Shown: piece by piece, positions 11,141-37,055 of the stretch
Layout: each line of letters starts with the position of its first letter
Position numbering within the stretch: the stretch's first letter is position 1
Source: Thermoplasmata archaeon
Lineage (GTDB): Archaea > Thermoplasmatota > E2 > DHVEG-1
Length of the DNA stretch: 42,086 nt
Direction: 5' to 3'
NCBI GenBank assembly: GCA_014894395.1
Contig: JADBLO010000116.1
Location: forward strand, 1 to 42,086
Notes under the pieces: model-generated
What the model saw: only the letters and a program-made list of their open reading frames with translations
Databases searched by the model: none
What the model was told of the DNA's origin: nothing
Made by a program: the position numbers and the translations under genes

Positions 11141-11734
11141 TCATAATTCACCTCTTGTAACCGCCAATCGTATTGTTCTATGGATCAATTGTCGTATATT
11201 GTACCCTATGGTTTTAAGCCATATTTCGTTGGTTTGACATTTTCGGTTTCTGCTGGAAAGATAGGAGTTGGTTTGTTGTTTGAATGAGCTGAATCCTGCT
11301 TCGCTGTTGGAACGTTTGTGGTATCGTTTGTCCCATGCTTTTTCGTCTTTTTCTCTGGATTTGTGCATCTTTCGCCAGGCAGGGTATCCTTTGCTTTTTC
11401 TGGTGCTGTTCTTTTTCATCATGAGAAATGGTGTTCCACCTCGTTTGGCGATGTATTGTGCGTTGCGTCGTGACGAGAGTCCTTTATCGCCGCAGACATC
11501 GCCTATCTCTCCGTTGATCTGTTCGAGCAAGGGAATCAATAGGGGTGAATCATGTCGTGTTGCTTTGGTGACCTCGATGGAGTAGATAGGTTTTTCAGGG
11601 CCTTTGATTTCCATTGCGACATGGATTTTTTTGAAGTCACGTTTTCTGGTTTTCTTCTTGGTTCTTAGACAATACCAAGGTGAGTAGTGGTCGGTTGTTT
11701 CTCCACTGGAATCTACGCCGATGTGTTTTCGCTT
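11141..11734 (-). CDS. IS5-type transposase, C-terminal DDE part (second frame)
   Basis: This frame continues the transposase after a -1 shift at an A7 tract (minus-strand bases 11739-11733). It begins 'KRKHIGVDSSG', which supplies the first catalytic Asp. It continues with 'VCGDKGLSSRRNAQYIAKRG' (second Asp) and 'KRSNSEAGFSSFKQ', whose Glu fits the third acidic residue, then ends 'VTRGEL' inside the terminal inverted repeat. The first ATG-initiated stretch starts at 11614, after the first Asp, so the protein is only catalytic if made by frameshifting from the upstream frame. It is either a programmed fusion or an inactivating indel. Confidence 0.75.
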   Translation of the reverse strand, partial: KRKHIGVDSSGETTDHYSPWYCLRTKKKTRKRDFKKIHVAMEIKGPEKPIYSIEVTKATRHDSPLLIPLLEQINGEIGDVCGDKGLSSRRNAQYIAKRGGTPFLMMKKNSTRKSKGYPAWRKMHKSREKDEKAWDKRYHKRSNSEAGFSSFKQQTNSYLSSRNRKCQTNEIWLKTIGYNIRQLIHRTIRLAVTRGEL

Positions 11735-12105
11735 TTTTTAAACTCATTAACAATAGCTTCGTTCGCTGTTCGCAGCCATGCTTTATCCAATTTCTTCATG
11801 GTTCGTTGAAGGGTTGATCTGCTTGGTGTTTTCTTGAGTTCTAATTGTTCTCGGAGTCCGGGGAATCCCTTGGCAAATGAGGTGATCTCCCGGAATTTCA
11901 ATCGGTAAAACATCTTCAATAGCAGAAGTATCACAAGTCCTTTCCAATCATATGCAGGTGGTCTTCCTGGTTTCTTTTTCTTTGTTCTCCAGTGTTGTGG
12001 TGGTTGTTGGTTCCAAATGATCTTTTTGCTGATTTCAAGGAAGAGGCGGAACTCTTCCTCTTCTGCTTTTTCGTAGACTTTCCAATTTGTTTTTCGCATA
12101 CCCAT
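11713..12105 (-). CDS. IS5-type transposase, N-terminal part (first frame)
   Basis: About 130 residues. The highly charged start ('TNWKVYEKAEEEEFRLFLE') is followed by the proline/basic stretch 'RTKKKKPGRPPAYDWKGL'. A helical DNA-binding region ('REITSFAKGFPGLREQLEL', 'TPSRSTLQRTMKKLDKAW') resembles the domain preceding the DDE fold in IS5 transposases. The frame ends shortly after TTT AAA AAA AGC, where a -1 slip joins the catalytic frame. AAAGGG precedes two close ATGs (12105 and 12099); a GTG at 12132 is also open. Confidence 0.72.
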   Translation of the reverse strand: MGMRKTNWKVYEKAEEEEFRLFLEISKKIIWNQQPPQHWRTKKKKPGRPPAYDWKGLVILLLLKMFYRLKFREITSFAKGFPGLREQLELKKTPSRSTLQRTMKKLDKAWLRTANEAIVNEFKKSENTSA

Positions 12106-12154
12106 CCCTTTGTACAGGTATGCAATTCTCACTTATTAATTATGAACCAAGGCC

Positions 12155-30777: not shown

Positions 30778-32433
30778 TCACAAACGTGAAAAAGTTATAT
30801 AGGATAATTCTAATCCCGGACCCATTACACTAAAAATAATAGCTAGCCCCGTAGTGTAGTGGTCAATCATACTGGCCTCTTTGGAGCCAGCGACAGAGGT
30901 TCGAATCCTCTCGGGGCTACTTGAACCATTGATGCTCCTGTAGTGTAGCGGCCAATCATGTCGCCCTTTCGAGGCGACGACTCGGGTTCGAATCCCGACA
31001 GGAGCATAGATTTTTCTCCTGTTGCCATGCTCGCAAAAGGTCTTTTTTCGTTGTTTTTTGATTTTTTGTCTCGTCTGGTTGGTTGTTAGTTGAGAACTGT
31101 GTGCTACGACCTGTTTAGTTGTTCCAAAACATTCTCTGGAATGTTCATGGAATTTCAACACAGCCCGTAGCCAGTCGTAAGGGTCTTTTCGGTAGTAATT
31201 TTTTGCGAATTTCACGTAGGTCTCTGTCGTGTCCTCGTGCCGGTGTCCCAAGTCTTCTTTAACATCTCTAATAGCCCAGTTACCCGTCTCGACTTTGGTT
31301 CGTATTATTCTCGCAATTGCACTCCAATCCCGCATTATTTTTGGACAAAATGGGTTCCATACTGGTTTGCAGTAAGGGCTGAGAAACATCCGCAATGCAT
31401 CTTCCGAGGGAAATGGTGTTCCGTCTTTTTGAATGAACAGAAAATCCCCTGATAGCTCATTTGCTTGTCGTTTTCTCCAGATATAGACCCAGTTCCTCAG
31501 ACTGCTATTTCGTCGGCAATTCATTACACGGTCGTCCAGCCATACCTGACGTGGTCGGTTCTTTTTCTTTTGCTCGTGGATGATGATGTAGCCATCATCA
31601 AAGTAGATATCTCTGATTTTCAGAAAGACAAGTTCTTCGGGTCTTGAGCCAATGTGGAAACCTACTGTCATTAACGTTCTTATCAGAGCATTTGTGAACT
31701 TATCACCCGAATAATTGTGATGCATCAGTTTATGTACGATATGGGGTCTTGGTACCTGTTTTACCTGCGGGTCGGGTTGTGCCGGTGGTGAATATCCCCA
31801 ATACGAAATGTCTTCGCCAAATGCTTCAGCAAATGTGTTCACTGTTTTCCAGTCGTTATGAAGTTGGAAGATTCCGAAATTTTCTTTTCCCATTTGTTTT
31901 GCTTTCTCAGGGTATTCGTAGATTTGTTTGTGGAGTAGTAAATTGAGTATCTGCTCAGGCTCAAACTTCAGCCAATTCACGGGATATATCGGATGGTTCG
32001 TCATCTTCCTTGCGTACCGAAGTCTTTCTATGATTGTCTTCTTACTCCGTCCTTTAAGGTTAACCCACCAGTTGTAGAGGTCATTGTATAGTTCTTCATG
32101 TGTGTCATATTTCGTCCTATCGATGTGAAGAGGGATGAGCAGTTTGCTACTATCAATAGTGCGACCTTGTGAACGGGTAGATGGGTTCTTCGATTTTTCA
32201 ACATCAAGAATTTGTTTTACATCATGTGAGTGTTTCACCTTTCTCCCCCAATCTATGTTGGGCGATGTATAGTCTAAAAATTCCTGGCTTTCGTTCGTTT
32301 CGGTCTTCTGACAATTTTGTTTTTTACCTCCTACCTTTCTTTTTAAAGGTAAGAGATAATTATCTTTATCTCTTAATAAATGTTTGGGGGACGAAAAATC
32401 GTTAGTTCGTGAGTTGTTATTCCGGTTATTCAT
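30778..32433 (-). CDS. Tyrosine recombinase (integrase), frame extends across both tRNAs
   Basis: A phage-type site-specific integrase. The N-terminal core-binding region covers about residues 110-210. The catalytic domain follows with R264 in 'HIGSRPEELV', Lys near 290 in 'EQKKKNRPRQVW', R368 in 'KIMRDW' (the usual His three residues before is Lys), H397 in 'LGHRHED', and the nucleophile Y406 in 'TETYVKF'. The catalytic part is complete by about residue 430. The frame has no stop until 30778, so the last 75 codons (after about residue 476) are antisense to tRNA-Glu and tRNA-Gln. The native stop was probably exchanged when the element integrated. AAGGAA lies before the ATG. Confidence 0.85.
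   Translation of the reverse strand: MNNRNNNSRTNDFSSPKHLLRDKDNYLLPLKRKVGGKKQNCQKTETNESQEFLDYTSPNIDWGRKVKHSHDVKQILDVEKSKNPSTRSQGRTIDSSKLLIPLHIDRTKYDTHEELYNDLYNWWVNLKGRSKKTIIERLRYARKMTNHPIYPVNWLKFEPEQILNLLLHKQIYEYPEKAKQMGKENFGIFQLHNDWKTVNTFAEAFGEDISYWGYSPPAQPDPQVKQVPRPHIVHKLMHHNYSGDKFTNALIRTLMTVGFHIGSRPEELVFLKIRDIYFDDGYIIIHEQKKKNRPRQVWLDDRVMNCRRNSSLRNWVYIWRKRQANELSGDFLFIQKDGTPFPSEDALRMFLSPYCKPVWNPFCPKIMRDWSAIARIIRTKVETGNWAIRDVKEDLGHRHEDTTETYVKFAKNYYRKDPYDWLRAVLKFHEHSRECFGTTKQVVAHSSQLTTNQTRQKIKKQRKKTFCEHGNRRKIYAPVGIRTRVVASKGRHDWPLHYRSINGSSSPERIRTSVAGSKEASMIDHYTTGLAIIFSVMGPGLELSYITFSRL
30793..30803 (+). promoter_or_regulatory. TATA box for the tRNA pair
   Basis: AGTTATATAGG is a TATA match about 45 bases upstream of the tRNA-Gln 5' end, on the same strand. 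Confidence 0.4.
30845..30919 (+). tRNA. tRNA-Gln (TTG), with an expanded 9-nt anticodon loop
   Basis: A full cloverleaf can be drawn. The acceptor is AGCCCCG/CGGGGCT with discriminator A, and the A1-U72 pair is the identity mark of archaeal tRNA-Gln. The D arm is GTG/CAT, the anticodon stem CTGGC/GCCAG, the variable loop CGAC, and the T arm AGAGG-TTCGAAT-CCTCT. The anticodon loop reads CTCTTTGGA, nine bases instead of seven. Without one CT it would be the normal tRNA-Gln loop CTTTGGA with anticodon TTG (30881-30883). CCA is not encoded. The gene may be functional, decayed or misread in assembly. Confidence 0.8.
30934..31006 (+). tRNA. tRNA-Glu (TTC)
   Basis: A normal 73-base cloverleaf. The acceptor is GCTCCTG/CAGGAGC with discriminator A, the D arm GTG/CAT, and the anticodon arm TCGCC-CTTTCGA-GGCGA with anticodon TTC. 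The variable loop is CGAC and the T arm TCGGG-TTCGAAT-CCCGA. CCA is not encoded. It lies 14 bases after tRNA-Gln. Its 3' end faces the integrase gene, the usual arrangement where an element has integrated into a tRNA. Confidence 0.95.
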
Positions 32434-32459
32434 TCTCGTTCATTCCTTATAATAAGTGG

Positions 32460-32505
32460 CAAGGTGACCGTCTTTTTTGTGTCGAGCGTCTGAACAATCA
32501 CCTTG
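32460..32505. repeat. Inverted repeat upstream of the integrase
   Basis: CAAGGTGA (32460-32467) is mirrored by TCACCTTG (32498-32505) across a 30-base spacer, just upstream of the integrase start. It could be an arm-type recombinase site, a regulator operator or a hairpin in the int leader. Confidence 0.35.
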
Positions 32506-32547
32506 TTCTCGATTTAGATATGAAAAAACTAGCTTTTAGGGGATGCG

Positions 32548-32560
32548 GATATATAAATAG
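32548..32560 (+). promoter_or_regulatory. TATA box for the 401-aa gene
   Basis: GATATATAAATAG lies about 38 bases before the ATG at 32593. The implied leader is only about 12-15 bases and lacks a ribosome site, as in many leaderless archaeal messages. Confidence 0.5.
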
Positions 32561-32592
32561 TGAAATGAAGATGCCATAGTTGTTGAGCGCCA

Positions 32593-33798
32593 ATGAATTT
32601 TCAAGAGGAAGAAATAAAAAAAATTCTCGTTTCAGTACCTGGTCAACGATTACTTGCATGTTTGCTCTTGATTCAACCTTTAACTGCGGAGGAATTGAGG
32701 AATTTCTTTGATTGTTTAATATCTGTTTTCTCCAAAAGGAACCGGATTTCAAATATGGCAAATGAAAAAAATTCCCTTTTTAATCCAATTTTTGATTTTA
32801 CTGACCTTTACGATAAAGATAGAACATTGAAAAGAGCGATAAAGAGTGGGTTAATAATTGAAGTTCCTGTGAAAAAAAACTGGGATAAAACTCATTATTA
32901 TTTTTTAAATTCTGATTTAGTTTTTAATCTAAGTAGCGATGGTTTAAAAATCACAAATAACAGGATTGTATTCCCCAGATTTTATAATCATCATATATAC
33001 TATAAGAGAAGTAATCAAACAAGGATTATAAAAGAATACATTGCTTTTCAACGACCAACACGAATAGCTAAAGTTCGATATAGCACATTAAAAGAATTTT
33101 CTACTCTATGCTGGTGGCTAATACGACATCCAAGACTCATTTCAGACACAATTGACATCTATCGTCATTTTTATTACGGTCCTATTACTAATCAAAAACA
33201 TCGCAAACAAATATCGATAGACGATTTACCAAAAAAGTGGAAAACAATATTTAAAAAAGCAAATGGAGAGGTATTCATGCGGCAAGAAAACCCTCATGAC
33301 TCGCCACTTCTGTATCCTTGGTTTAATACTTTAATTAATAATAAAATTTCTTTGTCATTTACTCCATCGTATTCTATTTTTGAGTGTTTCTCAAATTTTA
33401 AAGAACATGTTGGAGAAATAATCGAATACAACAAAGGATTAAGGGCAGTAGAAAAAAGGACACCTATGACCTTATTAAAAAAATTGACATCCGAAGAATA
33501 TGAGATAATACCTCAGAACCGTCAGTGTATCTTTTCATCAATTTTAAGATACGAAGATGTAGACGAAAGAACAAAATATATCCCACAAAATATCTCTGAA
33601 AAACAAAAACTCCACTTACAGAAATTGAACGAATCAGAAATAAAATCGGAAGAAACCTGTTGGATTGATAAAAATATAGAATTTACCAAGGAAGTTGTTT
33701 CCAGGTGGTTAAAGTTCAAATTTGATGTAGAATACTTACATTCCAAACTATCGACGCACAAAGAATTAAAATACACCGACATCAGAAAGGAGATTTGA
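32593..33798 (+). CDS. Hypothetical protein of the island, 401 aa
   Basis: I do not recognise this protein. It has no signal peptide or membrane segment. The N-terminal 60 residues are helical with a Leu-rich run ('LLACLLLIQPLTAEELRNFF'), possibly a winged-helix module. Then come basic and aromatic stretches ('RLISDTIDIYRHFYYGPITN') and a lysine-rich C terminus. It is AT-rich (abundant Lys, Asn, Ile), unlike the core genes. The stop TGA lies inside the first T-arm-like repeat (33787-33814). It is convergent with the Shedu-type gene. Its place beside the integrase suggests an accessory or defence role, but nothing in the sequence proves it. Confidence 0.65.
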   Translation: MNFQEEEIKKILVSVPGQRLLACLLLIQPLTAEELRNFFDCLISVFSKRNRISNMANEKNSLFNPIFDFTDLYDKDRTLKRAIKSGLIIEVPVKKNWDKTHYYFLNSDLVFNLSSDGLKITNNRIVFPRFYNHHIYYKRSNQTRIIKEYIAFQRPTRIAKVRYSTLKEFSTLCWWLIRHPRLISDTIDIYRHFYYGPITNQKHRKQISIDDLPKKWKTIFKKANGEVFMRQENPHDSPLLYPWFNTLINNKISLSFTPSYSIFECFSNFKEHVGEIIEYNKGLRAVEKRTPMTLLKKLTSEEYEIIPQNRQCIFSSILRYEDVDERTKYIPQNISEKQKLHLQKLNESEIKSEETCWIDKNIEFTKEVVSRWLKFKFDVEYLHSKLSTHKELKYTDIRKEI

Positions 33799-33814
33799 AC
33801 CTATGTTTACCGGT
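33787..33814 (-). repeat. tRNA T-arm-like repeat, copy A
   Basis: On the plus strand it reads AAGGAGATTTGAACC-TATGTTT-ACCGGT. With copies B and C it shares GATTTGAACC, a 7-base spacer and ACCGG. Read on the minus strand it resembles the T loop of a tRNA (GGTTCAAATC). It contains the stop codon of the 401-residue gene. Confidence 0.55.
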
Positions 33815-33828
33815 AAAAATTATGGTTT

Positions 33829-34779
33829 CTATTTTTTGTAACCTTTAATATCGCTTATCTTCCTTTCTTTAATGTTTTTTACTGTCTGTTTTGCCCTATC
33901 CAACACATCATCATATGTCCAAATTTCTATTCTATGAAAAATTATTTCATGTGCTTTTAACAATTCTTTCTCATTTTCTTTTCTACGACCAATAACGATT
34001 ATGCCCTTTGGATAAAGAACATCCAGCCCCGTTTGCTCCTTATGAGATAGATAATGTTTAGAGTAGTAATCCATATATCTTGCCATTTGAGATATTGCAT
34101 TTTTCAGTTCATTTGCCATGGTTTTATTTTTAGTGAACAATAGATGTTCTGGTTTCTTGAGTTCGATAATATCATAATATCCTGGCTCAATTTCAATGAG
34201 GAAATCATTTCTACCCTTCATTCCAGCCCAGGTTTCTTTGTGGACTGACCTATATCGTGAACCAAAAATCCAAAAGTCTTTGTAAAGGAAATTTTGAATT
34301 TCTTTCTCTTTTCTCACCGAAGACCGTTGTAATAACCTCTCAAAGCTTCTTATTTTTGTTTCCATATCTGGAATTTTGTTCTTTTGTGCTTTTAGTCTTG
34401 CTTTATTTAATTCTGCTTGCATCAAAACCAAATGTTTTGCCATTTTGTCATAAACTGTTATCTGCCTTCCTTTTTTTGGGGATTCTTCTAAAAAAATCTG
34501 AAGAGAAGTCAATATGTCTCCGACATAACTGGTGGCAGAGATGTTAAATTTTTGTCTTGTTTTATATTCACCGTTTTTTAAACGCCATCCGTATAATCGT
34601 AATTGAAATTTATCTTTTTGACCTACTTTTGTTTTTACTAAAATAATTGCCTTCCACCAATTCCTTGCTTTTGTCAATGTTTTTCCGCATATGACTTGTC
34701 CACCAATGGAACTTAATTTTGGTGGGAAAGTCTCCCCATCTTCATTTAATAACTGTCGTAATACATTAAATTCATTCAA
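33829..34779 (-). CDS. sduA: Shedu-type immune nuclease (DUF4263)
   Basis: A 316-residue protein whose C-terminal half (about 150-316) matches the Shedu/DUF4263 nuclease domain, known from a bacterial anti-phage system. Visible signatures are 'IQNFLYKDFWIFGSRY', then 'GRNDFLIEIEPGYYDIIELK' with D192 and the E-x-K pair E206/K208 (PD-(D/E)xK type). Next come 'KKPEHLLF', 'ISQMARYMDYY' with Q231 and Y235, 'GIIVIGRR' and 'EIWTYDDVLDRAK'. The N-terminal 150 residues are a separate sensor-like region with a coiled-coil stretch. GGAGGTGAT stands before a TTG start, and the downstream ATG is out of frame. It is second in an operon, 15 bases after a HEPN-like gene. Confidence 0.84.
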   Translation of the reverse strand: MNEFNVLRQLLNEDGETFPPKLSSIGGQVICGKTLTKARNWWKAIILVKTKVGQKDKFQLRLYGWRLKNGEYKTRQKFNISATSYVGDILTSLQIFLEESPKKGRQITVYDKMAKHLVLMQAELNKARLKAQKNKIPDMETKIRSFERLLQRSSVRKEKEIQNFLYKDFWIFGSRYRSVHKETWAGMKGRNDFLIEIEPGYYDIIELKKPEHLLFTKNKTMANELKNAISQMARYMDYYSKHYLSHKEQTGLDVLYPKGIIVIGRRKENEKELLKAHEIIFHRIEIWTYDDVLDRAKQTVKNIKERKISDIKGYKK

Positions 34780-34794
34780 TTATAATCACCTCCA

Positions 34795-35814
34795 TTAAAT
34801 TTTTTTTAAAACTTGAATCATTTGATTTATCACATTCAATGCGTTTTCAGATTCATCCTTAGTAACAACTAATTGCCCATTGTGGATAATATCATGTCTC
34901 AGTTGTCTCACACCATTTTTTGGGTTATCCCATAAAGACCACAAATCTTTATCTTTCTCAGAAAAAGATGTACCTACACTTAATCTTAGACCATGATTGA
35001 GCATATGATTAAGTTCATTTCTGTTCATCAAATAATAAATTAGATTTTTATCATATTTCTTTTCCTCATATTTTTTTCTTAAATACTCCATCATGAAAAT
35101 TTCGAAACCTGTATACATCTCAACGATAGCCATGCGATATTTACCTCGTCTATGAAATCCTAAGGCATTTTCAATTGTTAAAAGCCAAGATGGAGGGACA
35201 TAATCTGTTTTCAATTTGTGTGCAATTTCGCTTTGAACTTGTTTATCTATTTTTAAAGGTGGATTTCTTATCACGGGATATGCATCTAATCCCAATCTAA
35301 CTCTTTCTATAGGTTTATCATCTAATAGAAGTGTATGCCACCAATTAAATGATAAGTCATATGTATCTAATGCTGTTGGGATTTTATCCTCAATTCCAGA
35401 TGTTCTATAGATTTCAATAAATCTATTTACCGATTTGTTAAATGATTGGGTGCACCAGTTCCATTCTTTTTTCATCTTTATTTTTGCATCATTTTCTGTT
35501 GCTTTATCATGTATATTCCAAGCCCATCGCATTTCTAAGACTGTTCTCATTTTTGTTTTGTGATAATAAGGTTTTCCTGGAAGAATTTTATCAAATTTCT
35601 TTGCATTGTTTGTCGTTGTAATTGCCACAAGTTCTTCTTGTCCATCAATTACATTTCCCATTTCAATTAGCCATTTATCATTAGACAGGCCAATCTTCCA
35701 GGGCTTTCCATCTACTAAACATGGTTTTCCATCTATCAAAATATCATAGTCACCATCATCCATGCATAGCCAAAAAGGAAGTTCTGCTTCAAAATATGCT
35801 TTAACCATGCTCAT
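34795..35814 (-). CDS. HEPN-like protein paired with the Shedu nuclease
   Basis: A 339-residue protein. The C-terminal domain (about 215-339) has the all-helical pattern of HEPN domains. A first helix pair, 'GKYRMAIVEMYTGFEIFMME', is followed by a catalytic-looking RX4H motif, R306-HDII-H311 ('QLRHDIIHNG'). Many HEPN proteins are ribonucleases in toxin, abortive-infection or CRISPR systems. The N-terminal 200 residues are unrecognised and rich in Trp and Lys, possibly a sensor. GAGGGAG lies before ATG 35814. The longer frame up to 35961 lacks a ribosome site and crosses the promoter and a T-arm-like repeat. It is the first gene of the operon with the Shedu nuclease, which argues for a shared defence function. 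Confidence 0.7.
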   Translation of the reverse strand: MSMVKAYFEAELPFWLCMDDGDYDILIDGKPCLVDGKPWKIGLSNDKWLIEMGNVIDGQEELVAITTTNNAKKFDKILPGKPYYHKTKMRTVLEMRWAWNIHDKATENDAKIKMKKEWNWCTQSFNKSVNRFIEIYRTSGIEDKIPTALDTYDLSFNWWHTLLLDDKPIERVRLGLDAYPVIRNPPLKIDKQVQSEIAHKLKTDYVPPSWLLTIENALGFHRRGKYRMAIVEMYTGFEIFMMEYLRKKYEEKKYDKNLIYYLMNRNELNHMLNHGLRLSVGTSFSEKDKDLWSLWDNPKNGVRQLRHDIIHNGQLVVTKDESENALNVINQMIQVLKKI

Positions 35815-35854
35815 AGATTTTTTCTCCCTCAACTGCAATTTAAAAACAACTAAT

Positions 35855-35866
35855 CCTTTATAAACC
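35855..35866 (-). promoter_or_regulatory. TATA box of the HEPN-Shedu operon
   Basis: Minus-strand GGGTTTATAAAGG is a strong TATA match about 45 bases before ATG 35814. T-arm-like copy B lies just upstream of it. Confidence 0.55.
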
Positions 35867-35892
35867 CTCAGATAACAGATGCTAATTTGTAT

Positions 35893-35922
35893 AGGGAAGA
35901 GATTTGAACCCAAGATAACCGG
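35893..35922 (-). repeat. tRNA T-arm-like repeat, copy B
   Basis: On the plus strand AGGGAAGAGATTTGAACC-CAAGATA-ACCGG has the same spacing as copies A and C. It sits upstream of the HEPN-Shedu promoter, between that operon and the beta-helix gene. Confidence 0.55.
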
Positions 35923-35954
35923 CATGATATTCATTGACAGACAACGATTATCTT

Positions 35955-37055
35955 TCAACACATTACTGGAATGTCATAAGGTTCTTTTGCTGGATGCCAA
36001 TCGAAATTCACCCATGCAAAACCATACCCTAAAATGATTTTAGGTCCTATTCCCTTCCAATCATCCCAATAATTACGAAACCAGCGCATTCCTATTGATT
36101 TCATAAATAAAGCGCTGACAGAATTATTTATGAAATTATTTTCTTTCACAGTAGTAAAAATTGAGTTAATAAGTAAAAAACCACAATCTTCACAGAATGT
36201 AATGTTGTTATTTGTAATAAAATTGAAAACTGATTCTTCAACGAAAATACCCTGCCCACAGTGTGAAATATTGTTATAAGAGATGCTATTTATTACTGAA
36301 AATCCTAAGTAGATACCATACTGTGACCCATTAGAAATAACATTTCCTTCAACTAAACAATGTGTGAATGAGAAAGCCATACCGGACACACGTGTATTAA
36401 GAATCGTATTTCCTCTAATGGTTGATGATGCAGCTTCTGACTTAATACCATCACTGGTGGTATTTTTAATTCCATCAGGAACACCCATTGAAGTAATGAG
36501 ATTTCCAGAGATAATTGTATGAAATGTTTTGTATTCCATAATTCCAGTCGCTGTGTTTACGAAAATGTTCCCAGAGACATTGGCATTGAAAACAGTTTTA
36601 ATGTCTCTGAAATGATTAATACCGTGGTCTTTAGCATGACCAATATAAATCCCTGTATCTTCAAGAGTTCTACTACAGTTTTGTATAGTAAAACCAGTGA
36701 CCTTCACTTTATTTGCGGAAATGCGGATGACATCTATTCGATATCCTCCCCCTCCCCCGTCTATGATAGTCGTATATCTGTTTTCACCAATGAGATTGAT
36801 TGATGTATTTATCCAAATAGTATTTTCATAGTAAGGAGATGAATCGTGATAAACGAAAACCGTATCTCCATTTGATGCATTATTCACAGCATCTGTGATT
36901 CTGCTATAGTTCCCAGGCCCACTCCCACCAACATAGAGTGTCTTGCCTTTCGACATCGACAAGGAAGCCTTTTCTGTCTTTTGTGCGCTTGATGGAATGA
37001 TGGCGGTCCCAACGAACAAGAGAATGATTCCAACCGCCAAACATTTCCTTTTCAT
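35955..37055 (-). CDS. Exported right-handed beta-helix (NosD-like) protein
   Basis: The signal peptide (MKRKCLAVGIILLFVGTAII) is followed by the classic entry motif 'LYVGGSGPGNYSRITDAVNN' and 'ASNGDTVFVYHDSSPYYENT'. Ten or more parallel beta-helix (PbH1) turns follow, such as 'VTGFTIQNCSRT', 'NVSGNIFVNTAT', 'SSTIRGNTILNTR' and 'ISYNNISHCGQG'. It ends 'FRNYWDDWKGIGPKI', a common closing motif of these proteins. It is 366 residues long. Such proteins are usually surface-bound carbohydrate or polymer binders; a catalytic site cannot be assigned. It lies inside the AT-rich island, which is unusual cargo for a plain mobile element. Confidence 0.86.
   Translation of the reverse strand: MKRKCLAVGIILLFVGTAIIPSSAQKTEKASLSMSKGKTLYVGGSGPGNYSRITDAVNNASNGDTVFVYHDSSPYYENTIWINTSINLIGENRYTTIIDGGGGGYRIDVIRISANKVKVTGFTIQNCSRTLEDTGIYIGHAKDHGINHFRDIKTVFNANVSGNIFVNTATGIMEYKTFHTIISGNLITSMGVPDGIKNTTSDGIKSEAASSTIRGNTILNTRVSGMAFSFTHCLVEGNVISNGSQYGIYLGFSVINSISYNNISHCGQGIFVEESVFNFITNNNITFCEDCGFLLINSIFTTVKENNFINNSVSALFMKSIGMRWFRNYWDDWKGIGPKIILGYGFAWVNFDWHPAKEPYDIPVMC

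Follow-up and report, generated by a model that had tools for sequence, protein, structure and literature searches.

Why does an archaeal tRNA-Gln gene with a regular cloverleaf have an anticodon loop of nine bases, and is such a gene still needed? The question is raised by a stretch of 42,086 nucleotides, referred to here as the window. It forms contig C110 of an archaeal assembly (G000) that comprises 2.73 Mb in 146 contigs and is 92.7% complete. The original prediction described a tRNA-Gln with an intact CTGGC/GCCAG stem whose two extra loop bases resembled a CT duplication relative to CTTTGGA. It further supposed that, if this were the only tRNA-Gln(TTG), the tRNA works with an abnormal loop, the extra bases are removed, or the base calls are wrong. 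The features discussed below are listed in Table 1.

Table 1. Positions of the tRNA-Gln gene with the enlarged loop and of related features (unprefixed positions are those of the window; C145 and C103 are other contigs of the same assembly)
Feature	Position	Strand	Basis
A-type (A73, GatDE-route) tRNA-Gln(UUG), nine-base anticodon loop	30845-30919, 75 nt	+	RF00005; 95% identity to relatives; intact stems
Anticodon arm: stem CTGGC 30872-30876, loop CTCTTTGGA 30877-30885, stem GCCAG 30886-30890	30872-30890	+	sequence; alignment to G001, G004 and G005
tRNA-Glu(UUC), normal	30934-31006	+	RF00005, 62.8 bits; 14 nt downstream of tRNA-Gln
TATA-like stretch preceding the Gln-Glu pair	30789-30803	+	identical in G000, G001 and G005; nearly so in G004
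tRNA-Gln(UUG), normal, G73	C145:430-500		RF00005, ARAGORN
GlnRS gene, full-length, between the two G73 tRNA-Gln genes	C145:595-2169		glnS model
tRNA-Gln(CUG), G73	C145:2273-2344		RF00005, ARAGORN
tRNA-Gln(CUG), normal, A-type (A73)	C103:39255-39327		RF00005, ARAGORN

The gene scores 57.8 bits with the Rfam model RF00005 (cut-off 29), which marks two bases of the anticodon loop as inserted, and its acceptor, D and T stems are all intact. The nearest orthologues, in G001 and G004, are tRNA-Gln(UUG) genes of 73 nt with the seven-base loop CTTTGGA, and the window gene is 95% identical to them; therefore, it is not a chance match. Alignment with these genes puts the two extra bases within 30877-30880, where the repeat CTCT makes the exact site ambiguous. 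The window gene resembles archaeal tRNA-Gln of the route through non-discriminating GluRS and GatDE in its A1-U72 pair, A73 and D-arm, in its identity to the normal orthologues and in its place beside tRNA-Glu(UUC). GatDE is described as using the A1-U72 pair and the D-loop of tRNA-Gln (PMC9499178). It differs from them in the loop, which has nine bases instead of the seven that present UUG or CUG. ARAGORN labelled the gene tRNA-Lys(ttt) or, once introns were allowed, tRNA-Lys(ctt) interrupted by an 'intron' of 2 nt. Both labels were rejected on the 95% match to the tRNA-Gln orthologues, the A1-U72 pair and A73. The gene, its regular cloverleaf and its resemblance to a CT duplication were thus as the original prediction had them.

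The gene is not the only tRNA-Gln(UUG) of this genome. RF00005 found 44 tRNA genes in the assembly, and three of these are tRNA-Gln genes besides the one in the window (Table 1). A normal tRNA-Gln(UUG) on contig C145 offers a functional replacement for the window gene. The gene on C103 has both A73 and the AATCAT D-arm in common with the window gene. The protein gene between the two tRNA-Gln genes on C145 reaches 734 bits with the glnS model (cut-off 425.8) and 358.4 with the archaeal GluRS model (cut-off 401.75); against solved enzymes it reaches 721 bits with GlnRS and 271 with the best GluRS. By its sequence it is a GlnRS, not a GluRS. C145 probably does belong to this genome, since its GlnRS pairs with that of G001 and GatE of G000, encoded on another contig, likewise has the G001 protein as its sister. 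Intact full-length genes for canonical GatE and GatD are also present in G000. What was predicted about the identity of the tRNA and its loop therefore stands. The choice between abnormal function, base removal and wrong calls loses its footing, since all three presupposed a sole tRNA-Gln(UUG).

A GlnRS gene is not what the literature leads one to expect. GlnRS has been stated to be absent from archaeal genomes (PMC7373986), and all known archaeal lineages are described as being without it, the co-evolution of GatDE and tRNA-Gln being given as the cause of its lack of transfer (PMC9499178). One review among PMC7373986, PMC8762117 and PMC9499178 attributes the lack to the divergence of archaeal tRNA-Gln. 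A passage of PMC8762117, which cites Di Giulio 2020, gives the indirect route to 'almost all archaea' and a few lines later says 'always'. In a partial coverage of the literature on archaeal GlnRS, decaying tRNAs and large loops, no title that was found concerns GlnRS in these archaea; given the wording 'almost all archaea', it is possible that an archaeal GlnRS had been noticed earlier.

The distribution of the two kinds of tRNA-Gln was followed in 45 genomes of the family, including G000, and in 389 genomes of the phylum. Anticodon assignments of the tRNA-Gln genes are ARAGORN labels, and the genome sets for the GlnRS, A-type and GatE classes were compiled by hand. The tRNA-Gln genes read in the family fall into two kinds: A73 genes, whose D-arm is AATCAT-like, and G73 genes, in which the D-arm is shorter. 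GlnRS scored above the cut-off in 28 family genomes, and all 28 have a G73 tRNA-Gln. Such a tRNA also occurs in four of the 17 genomes without GlnRS (G011, G041, G058 and G059), and G059 has a GlnRS fragment. GatE was above the cut-off in 15 of the 45 genomes and forms two deep clades, a canonical one (G000, G001, G004, G012, G016, G021, G040, G044 and G045) and another (G003, G005, G019, G042, G051 and G057). The second clade is separate and deep, so its members in G003, G005 and G057 were not taken to prove that the old route is still live there. In G005 this gatE has a gatD gene as its neighbour, and a G73 tRNA-Gln(CUG) adjoins the gatE of this clade in both G042 and G051. Remnants of GatE are found in G006 (with an internal TAG), G048 and G050. 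Among the GlnRS genomes, four have an A-type gene and canonical GatE and four an A-type gene only; in the other 20 neither an A73 gene nor canonical GatE was found, which is soft evidence because many genomes are incomplete. The 17 genomes without GlnRS comprise the four with a G73 tRNA, four with an A-type gene and canonical GatE, one with canonical GatE only and eight in which none of these was found. In the phylum, GlnRS is above the cut-off in 50 of the 389 genomes and is scattered in patches across many families.

The A-type UUG gene itself is in different states in these genomes. G001 (JAPKYG01) and G005 (JAFNFT01), metagenome-assembled genomes labelled Euryarchaeota archaeon, and G004, Thermoplasmatales archaeon SM1-50 (LSSI01), all have it. 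In G001, G004 and G044 the seven-base loop CTTTGGA is found beside GlnRS, with two G-U pairs in the stem of G001. In G005, a genus mate of G000, the loop has eight bases, CTTTCAAG, and lacks UUG followed by G. The gene of G057, from another genus, has a 20-nt arm with the loop CTCTTTG, in which ARAGORN reads a CUU anticodon. In the gene of G050 the loop is normal, but the D stem and the T stem each contain one mismatch. All 11 genomes read that are without GlnRS (G012, G021, G040, G024, G026, G028, G029, G031, G035, G037 and G039) have CTTTGGA. The gene is thus abnormal in four of seven genomes with GlnRS (G000, G005, G050 and G057) and in none of the 11 without it (p = 0.011, kinship ignored). 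A pattern search of the phylum, in which the tRNA body was fixed and 16 to 24 bases were allowed for the arm, so that only genes with intact bodies are detected, matched 63 A-type genes in 53 of the 389 genomes. Sixty of them have 73 nt and three are longer, those of G000, G005 and G057. GlnRS is present in six of the 53 matching genomes (G000, G001, G004, G005, G057 and G078). Over-long A73 genes make up three of the eight matches in GlnRS genomes and none of the 55 elsewhere (p = 0.0014, with kinship ignored and genomes incomplete). Lesions also occur in A-type genes that lie away from tRNA-Glu, namely the UUG gene of G050 and the CUG genes of G005 and G047. In the CUG gene of G005 (C43:20405-20477) the CUG anticodon is lost and ARAGORN reads Lys(ttt); its T-stem mismatch is common to the CUG gene of G004. 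These cases are only suggestive of a rule that every altered A-type gene located away from tRNA-Glu has a damaged body.

The two-base insertion is most simply a recent change in the line of G000, after the split from the lineage of G001, because G001 is its sister in both trees, shows 25 differences in 400 columns of the upstream flank and has a seven-base loop. Six comparisons among G000, G001, G004 and G005 indicate which part of the gene is constrained. There were no differences at the 26 positions of the acceptor and D side in any comparison and 0-2 at the 29 positions of the T side, whereas the anticodon arm differed at 3-9 of its 21 positions and the spacer to tRNA-Glu at 1-11 of 18. Judged from these alignments, the tRNA body is constrained and the anticodon arm is not, so that the relaxation along the whole gene that marks a tRNA pseudogene is not seen. 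No tRNA-Glu(UUC) gene other than the one downstream was found in the assembly, and the TATA-like stretch is a probable shared promoter of both tRNAs.

The surroundings of the pair contain traces of mobile DNA. The flank matches G001 as far as the 3' end of tRNA-Glu and diverges beyond it, so a mobile element probably sits at tRNA-Glu. A search for a repeat of the 23-nt tRNA end, which would mark an attachment site, found none. The region 30778-35961 contains a minus-strand tyrosine-recombinase ORF at 30778-32433 (Phage_integrase, PF00589) and, at 33829-34779, a Shedu-like ORF (SduA_C, PF14082). The frame of the recombinase ORF crosses both tRNA genes in antisense. Insertion of the element was rejected as the cause of the two extra bases, as the element borders the 3' end of tRNA-Glu and not the tRNA-Gln loop. 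Elsewhere in the window (11141-12132), two minus-strand ORFs resemble one transposase split over two frames, with DDE_Tnp_1 in 11141-11614.

Our data indicate that redundancy and decay fit the comparative evidence better than the three alternatives proposed for a lone gene. The window gene is likely to be a redundant, decaying relic of the amidation route, whose body perhaps serves as a leader of tRNA-Glu(UUC). It is the ancestral archaeal tRNA-Gln(UUG) of the indirect route, in which a non-discriminating GluRS acts with GatDE. The pair of G73 tRNA-Gln with shorter D-loops, presumably charged by the GlnRS that they flank, most likely reads CAA and CAG now. The old gene probably became redundant, and its loop acquired the two bases once the lineages of G000 and G001 had separated. 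When the 19-base arm was folded as unmodified RNA, the favoured structure, at -7.9 kcal/mol compared with -5.5 kcal/mol for an open nine-base loop, was a lengthened stem that bulges one C and is capped by a UUUG loop. The enlarged loop probably folds into this bulged hairpin and could not present UUG normally, and a tRNA with such a loop most likely does not decode. Given the normal UUG isoacceptor, the loss of decoding would be cheap. The probable reason for the retention of the acceptor, D and T arms is the tRNA-Glu(UUC) gene 14 nt downstream, the only one found, with which the gene probably shares a promoter; as the head of the transcript of an essential tRNA, the tRNA-Gln body would have to fold for 5' and 3' processing. 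Some observations count against a relic. Canonical GatE, GatD and a normal A-type tRNA-Gln(CUG) are still present in G000, so the old route probably still serves CAG codons, and the odd gene may retain a residual role. Redundancy need not bring decay, since G001, G004 and G044 keep a normal A-type UUG gene beside GlnRS. The intact body is also unlike that of a freely drifting pseudogene.

It is conceivable, though we regard it as doubtful, that after GlnRS replaced amidation the old tRNA-Gln was retained as a non-decoding body under selection for a purpose outside translation, either as an obligatory leader for the folding and processing of tRNA-Glu(UUC) or as a tRNA-like molecule with GluRS, GatDE or GlnRS as its target. 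The loop lesions of G000, G005 and G057 would then represent a repeated silencing of decoding that was tolerated or even selected.

A sequencing or assembly error, with two surplus bases in one contig of a metagenome bin and a true loop of CTTTGGA, is unlikely. The nine-base loop is seen in one contig only and the sister G001 has seven bases; viral contigs gave no match to the exact stretch, and the collection of genomes that was searched may omit the window's own genome. However, independent assemblies alter the same arm in other ways (eight bases in G005, a changed arm in G057), the inserted bases lie outside any long homopolymer, and errors would not confine over-long arms to GlnRS genomes (3 of 8 against 0 of 55). 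A working tRNA, which would decode CAA by extruding two bases or shift frame as a natural suppressor, is quite improbable. The constrained body and the GatDE genes of G000 would suit it, and +1-frameshifting tRNAs typically carry an extra base in the anticodon loop (PMC7803779). In known shifters this is one base and in the window gene two, the normal UUG isoacceptor makes such a tRNA needless, and in the folding prediction the stem of the arm lengthens at the expense of the open loop. Nor is the loop conserved, with seven bases in G001 and G004 and eight without UUG followed by G in G005.

The contrast between the nearly invariant acceptor, D and T sides and the variable anticodon arm could also mean that the non-decoding body was repurposed as a selected RNA that acts on GluRS, GatDE or GlnRS beyond any part in processing. 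The body is retained in G005, where canonical GatE was not found, and mascRNA, a cloverleaf without an anticodon loop that binds GlnRS, provides a precedent (PMC9976931). The simpler account of this pattern is a leader that serves the processing of tRNA-Glu, and no trace of such an RNA remains in the many GlnRS genomes where the A-type gene was not found; we consider the repurposing very improbable. A tiny intron of two bases spliced from the transcript, as drawn by ARAGORN when introns are allowed, is hardly credible, since the introns that ARAGORN gives in other tRNAs of G000 have 14 (Tyr), 33 (Leu) and 66 nt (Trp), the relatives simply do not have the two bases and, to our knowledge, the archaeal splicing motif cannot form from two bases.

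Read as a decaying relic, the window gene can be compared with systems already described. It is similar to tRNA genes that decay after replacement of a charging route in that GlnRS and G73 tRNA-Gln are present and that lesions and losses occur in several relatives. It differs from them in its intact body, and the replaced route is one that reviews call universal in archaea. Like the expanded-loop +1-frameshifting tRNAs such as SufB2, it has surplus loop bases in an otherwise intact cloverleaf. Unlike them, it has two extra bases, which are not conserved in relatives, and it is redundant with a normal isoacceptor.

The observation of a nine-base loop is confirmed and its reading changes. Rather than a lone essential tRNA, the gene is most likely a leftover of the amidation route, redundant in a lineage with GlnRS. 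Contrary to the reviews on archaea, this lineage of Thermoplasmatota has GlnRS beside its own pair of G73 tRNA-Gln genes. The loop alone is of modest interest; as the mark of a switch of charging route it is of more. Relatives show the stages of the switch, with the old route only, with both routes, with a damaged old tRNA, and with no old route found. This natural series of genomes makes the replacement of an essential tRNA-charging route a testable question.
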